14,553 nt of DNA, taken from Solirubrobacterales bacterium (GTDB lineage Bacteria; Actinomycetota; Thermoleophilia; Solirubrobacterales; Solirubrobacteraceae). The stretch lies in assembly GCA_009781575.1 (NCBI GenBank), contig WQXW01000012.1, positions 1 through 14,553 of the forward strand, written 5' to 3'. This document shows positions 1 through 10,999 of the stretch, piece after piece. Each line of letters starts with the position of its first letter. Positions within the stretch are counted from its first letter, which is position 1. The translations under genes and the position numbers were made by a program. The notes beneath the pieces are model-generated. The model was not told the origin of the DNA and did not search any database. It worked only from the letters and a program-made list of their open reading frames with translations.

Positions 1-92
1 CAGGCAGTCGGCGTCGGTGCGGAACCAGGCGTGGAACTCGCTTAGCGAGCGCGGGTAGTGCTTTTCGGCTTGAGGACTAGCGATCCGGCCAT
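1..92 (-). pseudogene. IS1595-like transposase, N-terminal piece, frameshifted
   Basis: Reading leftward from position 69, the frame gives AEKHYPRSLSEFHAWF followed by RTDADCL and runs off the left edge. I recognise this as the usual N-terminus of IS1595-family transposases, just before their zinc ribbon. That frame has no ATG, GTG or TTG before its upstream stop. An ATG at 92 sits behind a good GGAG ribosome site, but it is in another frame and reads MAGSLVLKPKST before stopping at 42. The ATG and the AEKHYPRS frame are 23 bases apart, so one base is missing (or two are extra). I infer a broken start region or a sequencing slip; I see no classical slippery site. Only about 30 codons are visible, so the family call rests on this motif alone. 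Confidence 0.6.
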
Positions 93-120
93 TCTACTCC
101 GGTTAGATGGATACCCCACT
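1..120 (-). mobile_element. End of an IS1595-like insertion sequence (rest lies left of the window)
   Basis: The transposase start lies about 28 bp from a point where the sequence changes into a recognisable arm of the dispersed repeat (AAACAAAAAACG from 121). The bases between, read on the minus strand as GTGGGGTATCCATCTAACC, are therefore probably the element's terminal inverted repeat. The exact boundary could be 118-120. The matching far end and the target duplication are outside the window, so this is inference from the transposase motif and the abrupt junction. Confidence 0.5.
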
Positions 121-154
121 AAACAAAAAACGCAACGGACGGTGCTCGACCGGC
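121..154 (-). repeat. Half copy of the dispersed palindromic repeat, cut at the IS end
   Basis: AAACAAAAAACGCAACGG followed by a GGTGCTCGACCGGC-like stretch matches the outer arm of the full copies at 4386-4512 (reverse complement) and 9080-9206 (same orientation). The palindromic core and the other arm are missing here. They are replaced by the IS end. Confidence 0.6.
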
Positions 155-216
155 AGCGGCAAGCAAAATGAGGACCCCCCCGCTCCTCTGCTCGGCGAGC
201 CGCTCGTCCCCGCCCA

Positions 217-4385: not shown

Positions 4386-4512
4386 GCCGGTCGAGCGCCC
4401 GTCGAGCTCCGGCCGTTGCGTGTTTTGTTTTTTGGATTGGTTCCGCGCGGAATGAATCCTCTTTTTGAATCCCCCAACGGCGCCTCCGACAGGTGTGTTC
4501 GAGGCGACGCGC
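4386..4512 (+). repeat. Dispersed palindromic repeat, copy 1
   Basis: The 68-bp dyad runs from CCGTTG (4413) to CAACGG (4480). Its core at 4434-4459 is GGATTGGTTCCGC followed by GCGGAATGAATCC. The flanks also repeat: GCCGGTCGAGC on the left and CGCCTCCGACAGGTGTGTTC on the right, the latter with its own CGCCTC/GAGGCG stem (4481-4506). In this copy TCTTTTTG follows the core stem, so it could act as a terminator for plus-strand transcripts from the gene ending at 4314. About 21 of 34 positions pair across the full dyad. Confidence 0.85.
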
Positions 4513-4546
4513 CGGCCGGCAGCACCGTGTCCGCTCCCGCGCGCGC

Positions 4547-4552
4547 TATACT
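4547..4552 (+). promoter_or_regulatory. Candidate -10 box (TATACT) of trxR
   Basis: TATACT lies about 100 bp before the ATG at 4654. It is overlapped by the 19-bp palindrome described in the next entry. I see no good -35 hexamer in the GC-rich bases upstream. Confidence 0.45.
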
Positions 4553-4567
4553 TTACAAAGTGAAGTA
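4549..4567. promoter_or_regulatory. Operator-like palindrome TACTTTACAAAGTGAAGTA
   Basis: The two 8-bp arms TACTTTAC and GTGAAGTA are separated by AAA and pair at 7 of 8 positions. It stands out as AT-rich in a GC-rich region and overlaps the -10 box of trxR. A bound protein here would block initiation. The size and shape resemble operators of small winged-helix repressors such as HxlR/DUF24 or PadR, several of which sense redox or electrophile stress. No such regulator is encoded in the window, so the protein is unknown. Confidence 0.5.
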
Positions 4568-4653
4568 GGTAGGAGGGCATCGGAGCGGGAAGGCGCGTAG
4601 CATCGCCGGCGCGGCGCGGTCATCGGCTCGCCCACTCACCGACAGGAGCGCGG

Positions 4654-5676
4654 ATGGCATCCAAGGACATCGAGAGCACGATCATCGTGGGCAGCGGCCC
4701 GGCGGGGTACACCGCGGCGCTGTACACCGCGCGCGCCAACCTGCGCCCGCTGGTGATCGAGGGCTTCGCGTGGGGTGGCCTGTTGCAGCAGACGACCCAC
4801 GTGGAGAACTATCCCGGCTTCCCCGACGGCATCATGGGGCCCGAGCTGATGCCGCTCTTCCGCGAGCAGGCGCAGCGCTTCGGCGCGCGCCTGATCACCG
4901 ATCAGGCCGAGCGCGTGGAGCTGGCGAGCGAGGCGGGCGGCGTGCACTCGGTGTGGGCGGCCGGCGAGCAGCACCGCGCGCGCACCGTGATCCTGGCGAT
5001 GGGCGCGGAGCACAAGAAGCTCGGCATCCCCGGCGAGGAGGAGCTCGGCGGGCGGGGCGTGAGCTACTGCGCGACCTGCGACGCGGCGTTCTTCCGCGAC
5101 AGGCCCACGATGGTCGTGGGCGGCGGCGACTCGGCCATGGAGGAGGCGATCTTCCTCTCGAAGTTCGCCAGCGGGGTCGTGCTGGTGCATCGCCGCGACG
5201 AGTTCAGGGCGTCGAAGATCATGCTCGAGCGCGCGCGCGAGCAGCAGAACATCGAGTTCCTCACCCCGTTCACCGTCAAGGAGCTCAGGGCGGGCGAGGG
5301 CGGCGCGCTCACCGCGGCCACACTGGTGGACCAGCGCTCCGGGGAGGAGCGCGAGCTCCAGATCGGGGGCGCGTTCGTGGCGATCGGCCACCAGCCGCAG
5401 TCGCAGCTCGTGGCGGGCCAGGTGGAGCTGGACGACAACGGATACGTGGTGGTGCGCGGCCACTCCACGGCAACCAACCGCCCCGGCGTGTTCGCGGCGG
5501 GCGATCTCGTCGACCACACCTACCGCCAGGCGATCACCGCCGCCGGCTCCGGCTGCCAGGCGGCGCTGGACGCGGAGTGGTACCTGCGCGACACTCCCGA
5601 GGTGCCGATCCCCGCGGGCATGCACCTCGGCGACCCGGCCGAGGCCCAGTGGGCCCCAGCGGCCGACCCCGCCTGA
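4654..5676 (+). CDS. trxB: Thioredoxin-disulfide reductase
   Basis: This 340-residue FAD enzyme transfers electrons from NADPH to thioredoxin in the cytoplasm. The FAD-binding GSGPAG is at residues 13-18. The redox-active pair Cys139-Ala-Thr-Cys142 sits in SYCATCDAAFF. The NADPH domain shows VVGGGDSAMEEA near 155-166 and HRRDEFRASKIM, whose arginines bind the NADPH phosphate. GVFAAGDLVDHTYRQ is the C-terminal FAD motif. The length is slightly above the usual 310-330 because of a short C-terminal tail. AGGAG at 4644-4648, 5 bp before the ATG, fixes the start. The promoter carries an operator-like palindrome, consistent with stress control. No thioredoxin gene is adjacent. Confidence 0.95.
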   Translation: MASKDIESTIIVGSGPAGYTAALYTARANLRPLVIEGFAWGGLLQQTTHVENYPGFPDGIMGPELMPLFREQAQRFGARLITDQAERVELASEAGGVHSVWAAGEQHRARTVILAMGAEHKKLGIPGEEELGGRGVSYCATCDAAFFRDRPTMVVGGGDSAMEEAIFLSKFASGVVLVHRRDEFRASKIMLERAREQQNIEFLTPFTVKELRAGEGGALTAATLVDQRSGEERELQIGGAFVAIGHQPQSQLVAGQVELDDNGYVVVRGHSTATNRPGVFAAGDLVDHTYRQAITAAGSGCQAALDAEWYLRDTPEVPIPAGMHLGDPAEAQWAPAADPA

Positions 5677-5691
5677 GCCTTCGCGGCGCGC

Positions 5692-5721
5692 TCACCCGCG
5701 CCGGGTGATTTGGGATCACCC
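5692..5721 (+). promoter_or_regulatory. Overlapping alternative hairpins between trxB and the YccF gene
   Basis: Three segments can pair: TCACCC (5692-5697), GGGTGAT (5703-5709) and ATCACCC (5715-5721). The middle one can pair with either neighbour, each time across a 5-base loop, so the two hairpins exclude each other. There is no U-tract after the second. The element may be a weak terminator of trxB or a structural switch in the leader of the next gene. Confidence 0.35.
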
Positions 5722-5749
5722 AGCCGTGCGGCAGCTTTGATGTTGTCGC

Positions 5750-6169
5750 GTGCGCGTGCTGCTGAACATCATCTGGTTCCTGTTGGCGGGCCTGTGGCTG
5801 GCGCTGGCCTACGCGCTGGCGGCGTTGATCTGTTTCATCCTGATCATCACCATCCCGTTCGGGATTGCGTCGCTGCGGATCGGGATGTTCGCGCTGTGGC
5901 CGTTTGGGCGAACGGTTGTGCGGCGCGCGGACGCCGGCGCGGCGTCGACGATCGGCAACGTGCTGTGGCTCCTGCTGTGCGGGTGGTGGCTGGCGCTCGG
6001 GCACCTCATCAGCGGGGTGTTGCTGTGTCTGACGATCATCGGCATCCCGCTGGCGCTGGCGGACTTCAAGCTGATCCCCGTGTCGCTGCTGCCGTTCGGC
6101 CGCGAGATCGTGTCGGTCGAGCAGGCGCGCGCGATGGGTCTCACCCCGAGCGTCGAGGTGCCGCGCTAG
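5750..6169 (+). CDS. YccF-type small membrane protein with two repeated domains
   Basis: This 139-residue protein is made of two similar halves. The first has LNIIWFLLAGLWLAL, a second hydrophobic helix, then LWPFGRTVV. The second has GNVLWLLLCGWWLALG, a helix, then LLPFGREIV. This duplicated pattern of two helices followed by PFGR is the YccF (PF03733) arrangement. The molecular function of YccF proteins is not established. I took the GTG at 5750, which immediately precedes the conserved start; no ribosome site is visible, and another GTG lies two codons later. It is 73 bp after trxB on the same strand and may be read through from it. Confidence 0.82.
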   Translation: MRVLLNIIWFLLAGLWLALAYALAALICFILIITIPFGIASLRIGMFALWPFGRTVVRRADAGAASTIGNVLWLLLCGWWLALGHLISGVLLCLTIIGIPLALADFKLIPVSLLPFGREIVSVEQARAMGLTPSVEVPR

Positions 6170-6170
6170 G

Positions 6171-6198
6171 CGGCTGGGCGGCTGGGCGGCTGGGCGGC
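6171..6198. repeat. 8-bp tandem repeat CGGCTGGG, three and a half units
   Basis: Three exact CGGCTGGG units and a partial fourth begin right after the stop codon of the YccF gene. They fill most of the short gap to the converging 3-hydroxyacyl-CoA dehydrogenase gene. This is a slippage-prone spot outside coding sequence. Confidence 0.8.
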
Positions 6199-6218
6199 GC
6201 GGTGGTGGCGCTGCGCCG

Positions 6219-7847
6219 CTACGCCACCGCGCCGGAGCCGGGCGCGTACTGAAAGAAGCCGGCGTCGGTGGCGCGCCCGAGGCGGCCGGCCAGCACCATG
6301 CGGCGCAGCGCGGGCGCGGGGCGGTAGCGCTCCTCGCGGTACTCGCGCTGGAGCGCCTCCACCAGCGCCAGCACATTGTCGAGCCCGATCTCATCGCCCC
6401 ACGCGAGCGGTCCGCGCGGGTGTTTGAGGCCCAGGACCATGCCGGTGTCGATGTCGCGCGCGCTGCCGACCCCTTCGCCGAGCGCGAAGGCGCACTCGTT
6501 GATCAGCTGGCCCACGATGCGGCCCAGCACCAGGCCGGGCGCGTCGCCGACCCAGAGGACACGCTTGCCGAGCGTGGCGAAGAACCGCTCGGCGCGCTCG
6601 GCGGCGGCGGGCGAGGAGGAGTCGGCGGCGGTCAGCTCGACCAGGCGCGCGGCGGACAGCGGGGGCAGCACGTGGAAGCCCACCGCGCTGCCGCCGGGAT
6701 CGAGCGAGGCGAGCGAGCCGGACTGGCAGAGGATCACACGGGGCGCGCCCGCGGCGTGGGGGGGCTCATCGTGGGGCGGCTCCTCGCATTCGAGCACCAG
6801 CGCGGGGAGCTCGGCCTCCAGTGGATCGGAGGGCGAGCGCACCTCGTAGCCGGCCTCGGAGGCGGTGTGGCGCAGCTGACTCGCGAGCGGCGTGCGGCCG
6901 CCGATCACCACCACCGCCTCGCCGTGCGCGGGCCGCCGCGCCGGCTCGGGAGCGTCGGGGTCGGCCGGGCGGTGCGGCCGCGCGCCGCTGTAGTCGTAGT
7001 AGCCGCGCCCCGCCTTGCGCCCGTGCAGGCCGGCGGCCACGAGGCGCGCCTGGATCGGTGAGGGGCGCCAGCGGGGCTCGCCGAAGGAGAGCTCATAGAA
7101 GGAGCGCGCGACATCGAAACCGGTGTCCACGCCGACGAGATCGCTCAGCTCGAACGGCCCCATCGGGAAGCCGCCCTCCAGGCGGCAGATCTCATCGATC
7201 GCGCTCACCTCGGCGATGCGCTCCGCCAGCAGGCGCAGTGCCTCCAGGCCGAACGGGCGGTTGCAGCGGTTGACCAGGAAGCCGGGCCCGTCGGAGGCGC
7301 GGATCACGGTCTTGCCCATCGCCTCGCCGGTGGCGGTGGCGAGGGACAGCGCGCGCTCGCCGGAGCGCTCGCCGGCGATAACCTCGACCAGGCGCATCAC
7401 GGGCGCGGGGTTGAAGAAGTGCATGCCCACCACGCGCTCGGGATGGGAGGCGCCGGCGGCGACCGCGGTGACCGGCAGCGAGGAGGTGTTGGTGGCGAGC
7501 ACGCACTCCCCACCGACGACCTCGCACAGCTGGCGATAGAGCTCGTGCTTGAGCTGCAGGCGCTCGGGGGCGGCCTCGATCACCAGATCGCACTGCGCCA
7601 GCGCGGCCAGCTCGCCCGCGGCCTCCAGCCGATCGCCGGCGGCGGCGGCGTCGTGTGAGGAGATGCGGCCCCGCTGCGCTTCGCGCGCGAGCCCTTCGCG
7701 CGCGCGCGCCGCCCCGCGCTCGAGCGCGTCGGCGAGCGGGTCGTAGAGGAGCGCGCGCTCGGCGATGCGGCAGGCGAGCTGCGCGATGCCCGCGCCCATC
7801 GTGCCGGCGCCCAGCACGCCGATGATCCGCGCCGCGGGGGCGTCCAT
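6219..7847 (-). CDS. 3-hydroxyacyl-CoA dehydrogenase (PaaC/PaaH-like, two C-terminal domains)
   Basis: This 542-residue protein oxidises 3-hydroxyacyl-CoA to 3-oxoacyl-CoA with NAD. GAGTMG (13-18) is the NAD loop, LVIEAAPERLQLK (88-100) and NTSSLPV follow, and the catalytic His143 lies in GMHFFNPAPVMRLVEV. The first C-terminal domain is at about 188-290 (PMGPFELSDLVG). After a Pro-rich linker, residues 310-410 look like a worn second Rossmann domain: VVVIGGRTPLAS replaces the NAD loop and GFHVLPPLSAARLVEL echoes the active-site motif. A second C-terminal domain spans 430-510 (HPRGPLAWGDEIG). This duplicated layout is known from PaaC/PaaH-type enzymes. Its ATG is 4 bp after the acyl-CoA dehydrogenase stop, so the two are one operon. 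Confidence 0.92.
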   Translation of the reverse strand: MDAPAARIIGVLGAGTMGAGIAQLACRIAERALLYDPLADALERGAARAREGLAREAQRGRISSHDAAAAGDRLEAAGELAALAQCDLVIEAAPERLQLKHELYRQLCEVVGGECVLATNTSSLPVTAVAAGASHPERVVGMHFFNPAPVMRLVEVIAGERSGERALSLATATGEAMGKTVIRASDGPGFLVNRCNRPFGLEALRLLAERIAEVSAIDEICRLEGGFPMGPFELSDLVGVDTGFDVARSFYELSFGEPRWRPSPIQARLVAAGLHGRKAGRGYYDYSGARPHRPADPDAPEPARRPAHGEAVVVIGGRTPLASQLRHTASEAGYEVRSPSDPLEAELPALVLECEEPPHDEPPHAAGAPRVILCQSGSLASLDPGGSAVGFHVLPPLSAARLVELTAADSSSPAAAERAERFFATLGKRVLWVGDAPGLVLGRIVGQLINECAFALGEGVGSARDIDTGMVLGLKHPRGPLAWGDEIGLDNVLALVEALQREYREERYRPAPALRRMVLAGRLGRATDAGFFQYAPGSGAVA

Positions 7848-7851
7848 CGTG

Positions 7852-9012
7852 TCAGCTCGGCACGAGCGCGTTGACGCCGGTCATCGCGCGGCCGATGATC
7901 AGCTGCTGGATCTGCGAGGTGCCCTCGTACAGGGTGGTGACGCGCACGTCGCGGAAGTAGCGCTCGACGGGGTGGTCGTCGACGTAGCCGGCGCCGCCGT
8001 GCACCTGGATCGCGGTGTTGGAGCACCACACCGCGGCCTCGGTGGCGTGGAGCTTGGCGATCGAGGTCTCCACCGTGTTGGGGCGCCCGCGATCCTTCAG
8101 AAAGCCGGCGCGCCACACGAGCATGCGCGAGGCGTCGGTCTTCAGCACCATGTCGGCGATCATCGCCTGCACGAGCTGGAAGCTGGCGATCGGGCGGTCG
8201 AACTGCTCGCGCTCGGTGGCGTAGGCGACCGACTCCTCGACGCACCCCTGGCAGATGCCCACGCAGCCGGCGGCCACCGAGTAGCGCCCCGAGTCGAGCG
8301 AGGACATGGCCACCTTGAAGCCGTCGCCGATCTCGCCCAGCAGATCGTTCTCGCCGACCTCCACGTCTTCCAGCGCGATCGAGGCGGTGTCGGAGGCGTG
8401 CAGGCCCATCTTGTGCTCGATCGGGCTGGGCTGGAAGCCGGGCTGGTCGGTGTCGACCAGAAAGCAGCCCAGCCCGCGGTGGCCGAGCTCGGGATCGGTC
8501 TGGGCGAAGATCAGCGCCACCCTGGCGTAGTCGCCCATCGAGATCCACATCTTGGCGCCGTTGATCACCCAGCCGGAATCGGTGCGGCGCGCGCGCGTGC
8601 GCTGTTTGGCGGCGTCGGAGCCGGAGTCGGGCTCGGTGAGCCCGAAGCACCCGAGCCACTCGCCGGAGCAGAGCCGCGGCAGGTAGCGGTGCTTCTGCTC
8701 CTCGGTGCCCCACCGGAGGATCGCCGAGCAGACGAGCGAGGTCTGCACCGAGATGACCGTGCGCACCGATGAGCAGCCGCGCCCGATCTCCTCCACCACC
8801 AGGCCGTAGCTCAGATAGTCGAGGCCCGCGCCGCCGTACTCGCGGGGCACGATCGCGCCGAGGTAGCCCTGCTGGGCGAGCATGGCCACCAGCTCGAGGT
8901 CGAAGTGGTGGTTGCGCGCGTTCTGCTTGGCGCGCTCCACGATCTCCTTTTCGGTGAACTCGCGCGCGGTGCTGCGGATCAGCTGCTGCTCGTCGGTCAG
9001 GTCGAAATCCAT
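7852..9012 (-). CDS. Acyl-CoA dehydrogenase
   Basis: This 386-residue FAD enzyme introduces the first double bond in beta-oxidation of acyl-CoA. The signature CFGLTEPDSGSDAA lies mid-protein, with GAKMWISMGDYAR after it. The catalytic Glu363 sits in LYEGTSQIQQL near the C-terminus, as in short- and medium-chain acyl-CoA dehydrogenases. I chose the ATG at 9012 because AGAGGAG lies about 5 bases upstream and MDFDLTDEQQLI is the family's normal beginning. An in-frame extension to 9183 would run through the dispersed repeat and is rejected. It is first in an operon with the 3-hydroxyacyl-CoA dehydrogenase, and the two catalyse steps one and three of the cycle. Chain length cannot be told. Confidence 0.94.
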   Translation of the reverse strand: MDFDLTDEQQLIRSTAREFTEKEIVERAKQNARNHHFDLELVAMLAQQGYLGAIVPREYGGAGLDYLSYGLVVEEIGRGCSSVRTVISVQTSLVCSAILRWGTEEQKHRYLPRLCSGEWLGCFGLTEPDSGSDAAKQRTRARRTDSGWVINGAKMWISMGDYARVALIFAQTDPELGHRGLGCFLVDTDQPGFQPSPIEHKMGLHASDTASIALEDVEVGENDLLGEIGDGFKVAMSSLDSGRYSVAAGCVGICQGCVEESVAYATEREQFDRPIASFQLVQAMIADMVLKTDASRMLVWRAGFLKDRGRPNTVETSIAKLHATEAAVWCSNTAIQVHGGAGYVDDHPVERYFRDVRVTTLYEGTSQIQQLIIGRAMTGVNALVPS

Positions 9013-9079
9013 GTGTCTCCTCTGAGGGGGAAAATAGCGTTGAGGCGGCGGGCCGGTGGGCGGGCAGCGAGGACAGCGA

Positions 9080-9206
9080 CGGGAATCCGGCGCGGCGGCC
9101 GCGAACGCACCTGCCGCAGGCGCCGTTGGGGGATTTGTTTTGAGGATTCGTTCCGCGCGGAACGAATCCAAAAAACAAAACACGCAACGGCCGGAGCTCG
9201 GCCGCC
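9080..9206 (-). repeat. Dispersed palindromic repeat, copy 2 (perfect 26-bp core palindrome)
   Basis: Copy 2 is inverted relative to copies 1 and 3. Its core at 9144-9169 is GGATTCGTTCCGC followed by its exact reverse complement, a perfect 26-bp palindrome. The wider 68-bp dyad (9123-9190, CCGTTG to CAACGG) pairs at about 29 of 34 positions, because here TTTGTTTTGA faces AAAAAACAAAA. No U-tract follows the stem in either direction. It lies in the 324-bp gap between glyS and the acyl-CoA dehydrogenase gene. Confidence 0.88.
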
Positions 9207-9249
9207 ACCGCCACCGCTACCGGCACCGCCACCGGCACCGCCGCCGCTG
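9201..9249. repeat. Triplet-rich low-complexity tract
   Basis: The tract is made of CCACCG/GCACCG units and includes an exact 12-bp duplication of ACCGGCACCGCC (9219-9242). It sits in the glyS to acyl-CoA dehydrogenase gap beside repeat copy 2. I see no coding sense in it. Confidence 0.65.
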
Positions 9250-9260
9250 GGGCTGGCTCC

Positions 9261-9281
9261 GGCGCATTTTGCAGAAATCTG
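9261..9281 (-). repeat. Short second repeat module next to copy 2
   Basis: Read on the minus strand this begins CAGATTTCTGCAAAATG and matches 10966-10986 at 17 of 21 positions. In this region it precedes the palindromic core on the minus strand, whereas near copy 3 it follows it. The piece also contains a small stem GCAG/CTGC (9271-9282). The remaining stretch 9283-9336 shows nothing clear. Confidence 0.4.
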
Positions 9282-9336
9282 CGGCCGTTGTCCTCTCAGA
9301 GGCACACGCCTCCTCGACGCGGCGGTGGGCGGCACG

Positions 9337-10722
9337 CTAGCTCTCCCCGCCCAGCTTGGGGCTGCGCCACTCGCGCGCCACGCGCGCGGCGAGCTCGGAG
9401 GGGAGTCCCTCGATCGGCAACCGCTCCTGCACGAGCGTGTCGCGGTCGCGCACCGTCACGGTGCGGTCGTCGAGGCTCTGGTGGTCGATGGTCACGCAGT
9501 AGGGCGTGCCGATCTCGTCCTGGCGGCGGTAGCGGCGCCCGATCGCGCCCCCGTCGTCGTACTCGGCCTGTACCAGCGCGCGCAGCGCGCGCCACACCTC
9601 CCGGGCCAGCTCGGGCTGTGCGTCCCGGTTGACCAGCGGCAGCACGGCCACCTTGACCGGCGCGAGACGGGGGTGCAGGCGCAGCACGGTGCGCCGCTCG
9701 CCCTCGCCGGCGCCCTCGCGCGCGACCACTTCCTCGTCGTAGGCGTCGACCAGGAAGGCCAGCGTCGCGCGATCGGCCCCCGCGGCGGGCTCGATCACAT
9801 GTGGCACGTACCGCTCGCCGCTGCCCTGGTCGAAGTAGTCGAGCTTCTCGCCCGAGTGGCGCGCGTGCTGGGTGAGGTCGAAGTCGCCGCGGTTGGCGAT
9901 GCCCTCGAGCTCCGACCAGCGGGCTCCGCCGACGGAGTCGGTGGACGGGAAGAGGTACTCCACGTCGCTGGTGGCGGAGGAGTAGTGGGAGAGCTCCTCG
10001 GGATCGTGCGCGCGCAGGCGCAGGTGGTCGGGGCGGATGCCGAGCTCCACGTACCAGCGCATGCGCTCGGCCAGCCAGTACTCGAACCACCGCTCCGCGT
10101 CGTGGGGGGGCACGAAGAACTCCATCTCCATCTGCTCGAACTCGCGTGTGCGAAAGATGAAGTTGCCGGGCGTGATCTCGTTGCGAAACGACTTGCCCAC
10201 CTGGGCGATGCCGAAGGGCGGCTTCTTGCGCGAGAACTGGAGCACGTTCTTGAAGTTGATGAAGATGCCCTGCGCGGTCTCCGGGCGCAGGTAGGCCGTG
10301 GCGCCGGACTCCTTGACCGGCCCGATCGTGGTCTCGAACATGAGGTTGAAGTCGCGCGCGTCGGTGAGCGAGCATTCCTCGTATTCGCCGGGGTGCTTGG
10401 AGGGCTTGCGCCCGCACTGCAGCTCTCCAAGCTGATCGGCGCGAAAGCGCCGGCCGCAGGTGCGGCAGTCGACCATGGGGTCGGTGAAACCGGTGAGGTG
10501 GCCGGAGGCCTCCCACACGCGCGGGTGCTGGAGGATCGCGGAGTCGAGCGCCACGATGTCGTCGCGCTCGGAGAGCATCGCGCGCCACCATTCGCCCCTG
10601 ACGTTGCCCTTGAGCAGCACGCCGTAGTGACCGAAGTCGTAGGTGGAGCCCACGCCGCCGTATATCTCCGAGGAGGGAAAGATGAAGCCGCGGCGCTTGG
10701 ACAGCGCGACGATCTTCTCCAT
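9337..10722 (-). CDS. glyS: Glycyl-tRNA synthetase, alpha2 (eukaryote/archaeal-like) type
   Basis: This 461-residue class II synthetase attaches glycine to tRNA-Gly. The start MEKIVALSKRRGFIFPSSEI followed by YGG matches the normal beginning of this type. A likely zinc site is formed by Cys86, Cys89, Cys103 and Cys117. RPETAQGIFINFKNV (146-160) and motif 2 FRNEITPGNFIFRTREFEQ (179-197) belong to the catalytic core. The C-terminal anticodon-binding domain starts near RLHPRLAPVKVAVLPLVNR. I prefer the ATG at 10722, with GGAG about 9 bases upstream. The frame is open to a GTG at 10821, which would add a 33-residue Pro/Ser-rich tail; this cannot be excluded. I see no T-box sequence upstream. Repeat copies 2 and 3 flank the gene. 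Confidence 0.93.
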   Translation of the reverse strand: MEKIVALSKRRGFIFPSSEIYGGVGSTYDFGHYGVLLKGNVRGEWWRAMLSERDDIVALDSAILQHPRVWEASGHLTGFTDPMVDCRTCGRRFRADQLGELQCGRKPSKHPGEYEECSLTDARDFNLMFETTIGPVKESGATAYLRPETAQGIFINFKNVLQFSRKKPPFGIAQVGKSFRNEITPGNFIFRTREFEQMEMEFFVPPHDAERWFEYWLAERMRWYVELGIRPDHLRLRAHDPEELSHYSSATSDVEYLFPSTDSVGGARWSELEGIANRGDFDLTQHARHSGEKLDYFDQGSGERYVPHVIEPAAGADRATLAFLVDAYDEEVVAREGAGEGERRTVLRLHPRLAPVKVAVLPLVNRDAQPELAREVWRALRALVQAEYDDGGAIGRRYRRQDEIGTPYCVTIDHQSLDDRTVTVRDRDTLVQERLPIEGLPSELAARVAREWRSPKLGGES

Positions 10723-10847
10723 GGTCACCGGCTCCGCGGGCGACGGTGCAGGGGGGCTGGGCGGCGGTGTGTCGCTCACGGGAGGGGGATCGTATTGGGT
10801 GGGGCTCCCCTGGACGGACACAGCTCAGCCCTGGCTGGGTCGGCGAC
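10723..10847 (-). other. glyS upstream stretch, open but probably non-coding
   Basis: The glyS frame continues here as a Pro/Ser-rich stretch (PPPSPPAPSPAEPV) to a GTG at 10821 that lacks a good ribosome site. No clear promoter could be picked out. It is either the glyS leader or a disordered N-terminal extension. Confidence 0.4.
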
Positions 10848-10975
10848 GCCGGTCGCGAGCAGCGGCCGTGTCGTTTTTTGTTTTGAGGATTGGTTCCGCG
10901 CGGAACGAATCCTCTTTTCGAATCCCCCAACGCCGCCTCCGACAGATGTGTTCGAGGCCCCGCGCCAGATTCCCG
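10848..10975 (+). repeat. Dispersed palindromic repeat, copy 3
   Basis: Same orientation as copy 1. The core at 10887-10912 is GGATTGGTTCCGC then GCGGAACGAATCC, with one mismatched pair, and the stem extends by GA/TC to 10885-10914. The 68-bp dyad is 10866-10933; its outer ends have drifted (CCGTGT, AACGCC). The flank CGCCTCCGACAGATGTGTTC matches copy 1 at 19 of 20 positions. It lies between divergent genes, where there is no upstream plus-strand transcript to terminate, although TCTTTTCG follows the stem. Confidence 0.85.
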
Positions 10976-10999
10976 CAAAATGTGCATTTTCGCATTTTC
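10966..10999 (+). repeat. Second repeat module beside copy 3, with 8-bp duplication
   Basis: CAGATTCCCGCAAAATG (10966-10982) is the counterpart of the module at 9261-9281. It runs into the inverted repeat AAAATG/CATTTT (10977-10990) and an exact tandem GCATTTTC (10984-10991, 10992-10999). The AT-rich character against a GC-rich background is notable. The remaining stretch to the ATG at 11059 shows no clear motif. Confidence 0.4.

Follow-up and report, generated by a model that had tools for sequence, protein, structure and literature searches.

A lineage-specific intergenic palindromic repeat, most likely spread by insertion, in one species of Solirubrobacteraceae

The question raised by this locus is what kind of sequence recurs, as a long palindrome, in the gaps between its genes. 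The window (the whole stretch of 14,553 nucleotides that was analysed) is contig 12, WQXW01000012.1, of the draft genome GCA_009781575.1 of a Solirubrobacterales bacterium (2.25 Mb in 401 contigs, 73% complete). An earlier note, made from the sequence of the window, had described three full copies and one half copy of a dispersed repeat, and had likened it to repetitive extragenic palindromic (REP) sequences and REPINs, to miniature inverted-repeat transposable elements (MITEs), or to a multi-copy binding site of a nucleoid protein. The explanation favoured here, with moderate confidence, is a lineage-specific, non-autonomous REP/MITE-like element of ~103 bp that spread by insertion into the intergenic DNA of one Solirubrobacteraceae species and is recognised by a protein. 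The three full copies were located by their 26-bp cores at 4434-4459, 9144-9169 and 10887-10912 (six matches counting both strands; none in 200 shuffles).

The high genome copy number that had been surmised was confirmed. With up to 3 mismatches allowed, the core was found at 334 places in the source genome (the pattern is its own reverse complement), and the reversed-pattern control gave 0. The density was ~1 copy per 6.5 kb, and extrapolation of the 334 places at 73% completeness suggests roughly 460 copies in the complete genome. The comparison set comprised 146 Solirubrobacteraceae genomes including the source, of which many were drafts and 71 were at least 90% complete with low contamination; 23 of the 145 others were congeners. 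The core occurred in 0 of these 145 genomes, the 23 congeners and those at least 90% complete included, and in a relatives set of 61 genomes it was present in the source genome only. A BLAST search with a 126-bp query matched 0 of the 23 other genus genomes. The element profile matched nothing in 1.2 Mb of the congener G009 or in ~0.65 Mb more from congener loci and from the GlyRS (glycyl-tRNA synthetase) loci of more distant bacteria (1.85 Mb in total), and the element was unmatched in the viral contigs, phages and plasmids searched. The 18-mers of the element reached 78 occurrences in 556 kb of the source genome, and no 18-mer exceeded 5 occurrences in 400 kb of G009. The family is thus real, abundant and lineage-specific, being confined to one species among the genomes compared. 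The suggestion of a nucleoid-protein site survives in part: a multi-copy protein-binding site is possible, and a conserved housekeeping nucleoid site is unlikely because 145 of the 146 family genomes lack the core. Neither a nucleoid nor a partition site conserved among congeners is indicated, the core being present in 0 of 23.

The intergenic placement noted in the window holds for the family. In a sample of 61 contigs of the source genome (three cut at 20 kb; 737,186 bases), with genes called by a home-made caller, a profile search at an E threshold of 0.01 gave 121 hits, of which 114 scored above 70 bits and were counted as full copies. Gene gaps held 105 of these, contig edges 7 and called genes 2; random midpoints fell in genes in 86% of cases (earlier 339-kb sample). 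Both in-gene placements depend on doubtful gene calls, one being a low-score call (score 8.3, contig L065) and the other an open reading frame at L280 in which the caller joined two genes around a copy. That stop-free frame (L280:1844-4285) spans what we take to be a DnaC-like gene, an element copy and, presumably, an adenylosuccinate-synthetase-like gene; it is probably two genes with a copy between them, and possibly a read-through fusion. Of the copies in gaps, 59 lay in tandem, 28 in convergent and 18 in divergent gaps (48.5, 12.3 and 18.7 kb of gap DNA, respectively); relative to gap length they were most frequent in the convergent class (chi-square p 0.005). Where a tandem gap held a single copy (53 gaps), that copy lay a median 64 nt from the 3′ end of the upstream gene and 124 nt from the start of the following one (p 6e-4). 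Copies in tandem gaps showed no orientation bias (34 same, 25 opposite, p 0.30), the coefficient of variation of copy spacing was 0.59 in a small, contig-limited sample, and 6 of 116 contig ends had a copy within 60 nt (~3 expected). In number and placement (334 places; 105 of 114 in gaps) the family therefore has the high-copy, extragenic, palindromic character of REP sequences and REPINs.

Spread by insertion was examined through the lengths of syntenic gaps. One hundred gene pairs were adjacent both in the source contigs and in G009, the relative used for comparison (median orthologue identity 69%), and 12 of them hold a copy in the source genome. The copy-bearing gaps had a median length of 345.5 nt versus 80 nt in G009 (median difference +222.5 nt), and 10 of the 12 exceeded their counterparts; for the 88 gaps without a copy the median difference was +4.5 nt (Mann-Whitney p 8e-5). 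The gap of copy 2, between the GlyRS and acyl-CoA dehydrogenase genes, measured 327 nt. At the 18 loci where these genes are neighbours in congeners it was 7-255 nt, with 16 loci at 7-83 nt and the remaining two at 139 and 255 nt (four loci arranged otherwise and one with the second gene not found were set aside). Its count, its placement, its absence in relatives and these longer gaps make insertion within a single lineage the most likely way in which the family spread. The contrast with empty sites expected of a MITE is seen in gap lengths, in G009 and at the GlyRS locus.

The extent of the element was defined by per-column conservation in 58 copies, which placed the conserved unit of ~103 bp at about -31 to +71 from the core start; beyond it, flank homology continues in some copies. 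The earlier estimate of a copied unit of ~120 bp is sound as to the copying of ~100-120 bp, the conserved part being ~103 bp. For column analysis, 106 gapless copies were taken out of 113 placed, 7 being dropped for low gapless identity. No two were identical (0 of 5565 pairs), the best pair reached 97.1% and the median nearest neighbour 92%. Changes per column had a variance/mean of 18.8: 47 of 103 columns differed in at most 3 copies and 14 differed in at least 25% of them. The 17 variable columns form 136 pairs, of which 7 showed association (z above 4); in five of the seven the columns are 1-5 bp apart, in two 23-24 bp. Columns -22, -16 and -12 were mostly G or T (97, 93 and 98 of 106 copies), although the flanks are 71% G+C, and in 79 copies all eight G/T combinations occurred nearly independently (GGG 23 versus 20.4 expected, TTT 4 versus 3.7).

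Base pairing was kept far less well. Only 20-25% of the 106 copies can pair arm positions -3 to -8 with the mirror positions, because most have T tracts to either side of the core. At core pair 5/20, 77 of 106 carry a G-G mismatch; the remaining inner core pairs form in 80-100%. The 68-bp dyad proposed earlier is accordingly true of copy 2, where an AAAACA variant of the right arm makes the long dyad almost complete, and does not describe the family, in which the inner arms are unpaired in 75-80% of copies. Folding was good for copy 2 as RNA (z -3.6) and poor for copy 1 as DNA (z -0.8). A hairpin or RNA reading was rejected, as the family does not retain pairing. Sequence is conserved more than pairing, and since columns are near-invariant while pairing is not kept, we infer that a protein recognises the element as duplex DNA. 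G and T have a common keto group in the major groove, which would fit the G/T columns.

The borders of the unit were further explored through a box, GATTCCCGCAAAATGCGC, which lay within ~120 nt of a core at 20 of 21 sites (3 mismatches allowed; 339 kb). Beside 111 copies, with 5 mismatches allowed, it stood on both sides in 8, on the right only in 19, on the left only in 14 and on neither in 70. The outward fading of homology had suggested flank erosion around a selected core; this was rejected, since the box is mostly either near-intact or at background. It was near-intact (0-3 mismatches) in 23 of the 113 flanks on the right and in 14 of the 112 on the left (0 of 380 controls), and intermediates with 4-6 mismatches were few (7 on the right, 6 on the left; 7 of 380 controls). 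The scarcity of intermediates argues for units of differing extent rather than decay. Profiles of longer flanks matched 43 of the 85 flanks on the left and 30 of the 85 on the right, versus 0 and 1, respectively, of 425 controls. The box is part of a second sequence, family B, with palindromes of its own (AAAATGCGCATTTT; CCCGTGC...GCACGGG), which also occurs alone as an intergenic double palindrome at L073:1423-1548 in the source genome and at L300:406-471 in the congener G007. Two more family B hits in the source genome had no copy nearby, one at a contig start and one resembling the second small element described below. With at most 2 mismatches, box sites numbered 94 in the source genome, 2 in G007 and 1 each in three other congeners; the reversed box gave 1 site, in G009. 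By eye, several of 18 listed left boxes were preceded by sequence resembling that before the box in solo family B, so that at those sites the element apparently has the left part of family B on either side. Some of the 8 copies that carry two boxes are bordered by a repeat of ~24 bp. The element may have begun by entering a copy of family B.

These observations can be joined in a single scheme. A protein, most likely the enzyme that moved the element, would recognise double-stranded DNA, with the palindromic core as a dimer site accompanied by the T-rich arms and by outer CCGTT/AACGG half-sites, as the near-invariant columns and unkept pairing suggest. Units may have been copied with imprecise borders, leaving the family B box on one or both sides of 41 of 111 copies. 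Copies in genes and promoters would have been lost or avoided, giving the bias to gene 3′ ends. The mobilising enzyme might be encoded in the unassembled 27% of the genome, belong to a family that was not searched for, or be extinct, and the AT-rich arms would now serve as landing sites for an IS1595-type insertion sequence (IS) and for the second small element.

Several results weigh against this scheme. A mobilising transposase was not identified, PF01797 and PF12762 being the only families covered by the search of the source genome. No terminal inverted repeat was evident in the consensus, whose two 25-bp ends agree in 6 of 25 positions (best shift 8), the unit borders being fuzzy and the genome incomplete. 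No long target duplication was seen, as 1 of 69 box-free copies reached score 12 versus 2% of mismatched pairs (duplications of 2-9 bp would be undetectable). With a best pair of 97.1% and none identical, nothing points to recent movement. Of the 12 copy-bearing gaps, two are shorter than in G009 (339 versus 405 nt and 336 versus 386 nt); these belong to copies 1 and 3, so that within the window direct support for insertion comes from copy 2 only. The G009 gaps at copy sites were also longer than its other gaps (p 0.009), G009 is too distant for empty sites to be aligned base by base, and gap lengths rest on gene starts that depend on the caller.

A different account of the conservation, which we regard as possible though not probable, is that the copies spread and are now held by host purifying selection as duplex sites of one abundant protein, with proposed roles in chromosome organisation or in insulation at gene 3′ ends. 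The copies are not young, no pair exceeding 97.1%, and yet 47 of 103 columns are near-invariant; the variable columns assort almost freely (7 of 136 pairs), G/T alleles persist at -22, -16 and -12 amid G+C-rich flanks, copies lie towards gene 3′ ends, and few are degraded (of 121 hits, 7 scored no more than 70 bits, and contig ends or insertions truncate several of these). Copies in advanced decay would be missed by the profile, however, so that their scarcity is no proof of absence. Moreover, the element is absent from 145 other family genomes, a constrained stretch of ~100 bp is longer than ordinary binding sites are, the candidate binding protein has no name as yet and orientation bias is lacking. 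Gene conversion could likewise keep columns alike and account for part of the uniformity, although it hardly explains free assortment of columns 4 bp apart. A fuller version, put forward just as tentatively, would have a selfish repeat reach several hundred intergenic places and then be taken over as a genome-wide array of duplex protein sites under purifying selection, with a degenerate code (G/T at three left-arm columns, G/C at symmetric core positions) that is nearly unlinked and evolves copy by copy. The bias to 3′ ends and convergent gaps would also suit multiplied intrinsic terminators, formed by a hairpin core followed by TCTTTTTG (element plus strand) or by the left end together with the T-rich left arm after it. 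A T tract follows the palindrome in 84 of 105 gap copies, and the second arrangement, in copies 2 and 3, provides three of the five terminator-like sites in the window. These five sites were nevertheless not clearly more than in shuffles (3.1, sd 1.9), and none used the core; with no preferred orientation in tandem gaps (34 versus 25), with 18 copies in divergent gaps, where terminators are unneeded, and with T and A arm variants spread across all gap types, this explanation is very improbable.

Movement by a REP-associated tyrosine transposase (RAYT, a Y1 transposase) encoded in the unassembled part of the genome would make the family a REPIN or REP family, and this we consider unlikely. Hundreds of lineage-specific intergenic palindromes nearer gene 3′ ends speak for it, as do IS insertions into the repeat, which are also reported for REPs (PMC1525189). 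PF01797 (Y1/RAYT), on the other hand, gave 0 hits at E up to 1 in the source genome, although a gene in the missing part of this 73% complete assembly is possible, and was matched in 1 of 24 genus genomes. The search works, as PF01797 was found in 10 of 14 control genomes, six of them over the cut-off. Neither a GTAG nor a CGTC tag occurs in the 103-bp consensus on either strand; of the 106 copies, 0 contain GTAG, 1 CTAC, 42 CGTC and 12 GACG, and CGTC depends on the variable column -22, ~20 bp from the core rather than beside its stem. A hairpin kept by pairing was likewise not found (arms 20-25% paired; 5/20 a G-G mismatch in 77 of 106). Least credible of all is derivation from decayed ends or internal deletions of one known IS, such as the IS1595-type IS at the window edge (1..120, minus strand, one end GTGGGGTATCCATCTAACCGGAGTAG, leaving the contig), which adjoins the half copy. 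Among the contigs of the source genome that were examined, the end GTGGGGTATCCATCTAACCGGAGTAG was found at four places, each within the arm of a copy and one being the half copy of the window; the four junctions occupy differing arm positions, the IS end is no part of the element, and this IS, the only one found near, has ends unlike those of the element. PF12762 gave 0 hits in the source assembly, where the IS ends leave contigs, other IS families not being searched for, and no phage or plasmid matched the element. The transposase-like reading beside 121-154, which at first resembled the element's own transposase, was rejected in that role on the same junctions and ends.

The element is thus REP/MITE-like in habit, a description that fits its distribution and its lineage-specific insertion; a REPIN proper is not supported by the features tested (PF01797, GTAG, pairing), and it may or may not be a MITE. 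REP/REPIN-RAYT systems (PMC3116915, PMC3733652) share with it hundreds of short, lineage-specific intergenic palindromic copies that are IS targets. Those systems are defined by GTAG (or CGTC) next to the stem (PMC3733652), whereas here the GTAG tag is absent, a Y1 transposase was not found in an incomplete genome, the 13-bp stem is loopless with arms mostly unpaired and duplex sequence constrained, and none of 106 copies is identical to another over 103 bp. ERIC-, RUP- and Correia-type bacterial MITEs, as described in PMC2229807, measure 107-155 bp (RUP: 108 copies) and resemble the element in size, intergenic position, palindromes, high copy number and a mobiliser often unproven. The element differs from them in that its consensus has no terminal inverted repeat, target duplication was not seen (short ones being undetectable), its palindrome is central and it occurs in one species only among 146 family genomes. 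The CGTC-tagged palindromes of PMC3733652 have 8-9-bp stems, 4-5-nt loops and a terminal CGTC, and for them too no dedicated transposase is known; the present unit measures 103 bp and contains a 26-bp core, and the 42 of 106 copies with CGTC have it at a variable column away from that core. Insertion of ISs into REP sequences is documented in PMC1525189, as with the IS ends within copies at 4 of 4 junctions here, which in contrast involve an IS1595-type IS and AT-rich arms. In the open-access literature, nothing was found on palindromic intergenic repeats in Solirubrobacter, and on miniature inverted-repeat elements in Actinobacteria no title dealt with this group.

The best-known small dispersed repeats are those of Proteobacteria, Neisseria, streptococci and cyanobacteria, which are often tied to a RAYT or an IS. 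The present family is confined, among the genomes compared, to one uncultivated actinobacterial species, with neither partner seen. It joins non-young copies, strict column conservation and almost no linkage, and thereby allows one to test directly whether it is a mobiliser, gene conversion or the host that maintains such arrays.

Within the window, the 103-bp unit of copy 1 (4403..4505, plus strand; T replaces C at core position 19) lies between an LPG_synthase_TM gene and a pyridine nucleotide-disulphide oxidoreductase gene. Copy 2 (9098..9200, minus strand) stands between the GlyRS and acyl-CoA dehydrogenase genes, and its 26-bp core is a perfect palindrome, as had been reported. Copy 3 (10856..10958, plus strand) occupies the divergent gap between the GlyRS gene and an NAD(P)-binding-domain gene. 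The GlyRS gene is presumably that, given its class II synthetase and anticodon domains, and named relatives of its product place the organism in Solirubrobacteraceae/Solirubrobacterales. Each copy thus sits between genes, and the 21-bp arms flanking the cores and the common right flank CGCCTCCGACAGRTGTGTTC were also as described; of the outer ends, CCGTTG was wrong for copy 3, which has CCGTGT. The sequence at 121-154 is indeed a copy, its left part spanning 116..155 (minus strand) with the T-rich arm broken by the IS. Family B boxes lie to the right of copy 3 (10968..10985, plus strand, GATTCCCGCAAAATGTGC, 1 mismatch) and to the left of copy 2 (9262..9279, minus strand, GATTTCTGCAAAATGCGC, 2 mismatches). 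No Rfam covariance model matched anywhere in the window at gathering thresholds.

The IS was assigned to the IS1595 family through a related full-length transposase in a family member (L293:538-1593), which matches PF12762 and PF12760; the 31-aa IS fragment in the window had no Pfam hit. Its presence in the arms is probably owing to their base composition in a G+C-rich genome. The related IS of G007 (L292) follows AT-rich sequence other than the element. The second small element, of ~420 bp with inverted ends GGGTGCGGCTCTCC..., is inserted in an arm of one copy at L082, bordered on each side by TTTGTTTTT. Its two examples, with inverted ends GGGTGCGGCTCTCCTGGAGGGACG..., are at L082:6441-6840 and L081:12956-13132, the latter adjoining a copy near the end of contig L081. 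Its interior contains AAAACAAATCCCCCA, which is also present in one variant of the main element's right arm.

Two further observations concern congeners. A frame matching PF01797 was seen in G007 (L297, G007:C232:26800-28600), beside a frame that we take to be TnpB-like, as in IS200/IS605 elements. The gaps between the GlyRS and acyl-CoA dehydrogenase genes at L088 and L092 contain another repeated motif, TATAGCGATGGTTATACAG-like, and other species of the genus may therefore carry small repeats of their own.

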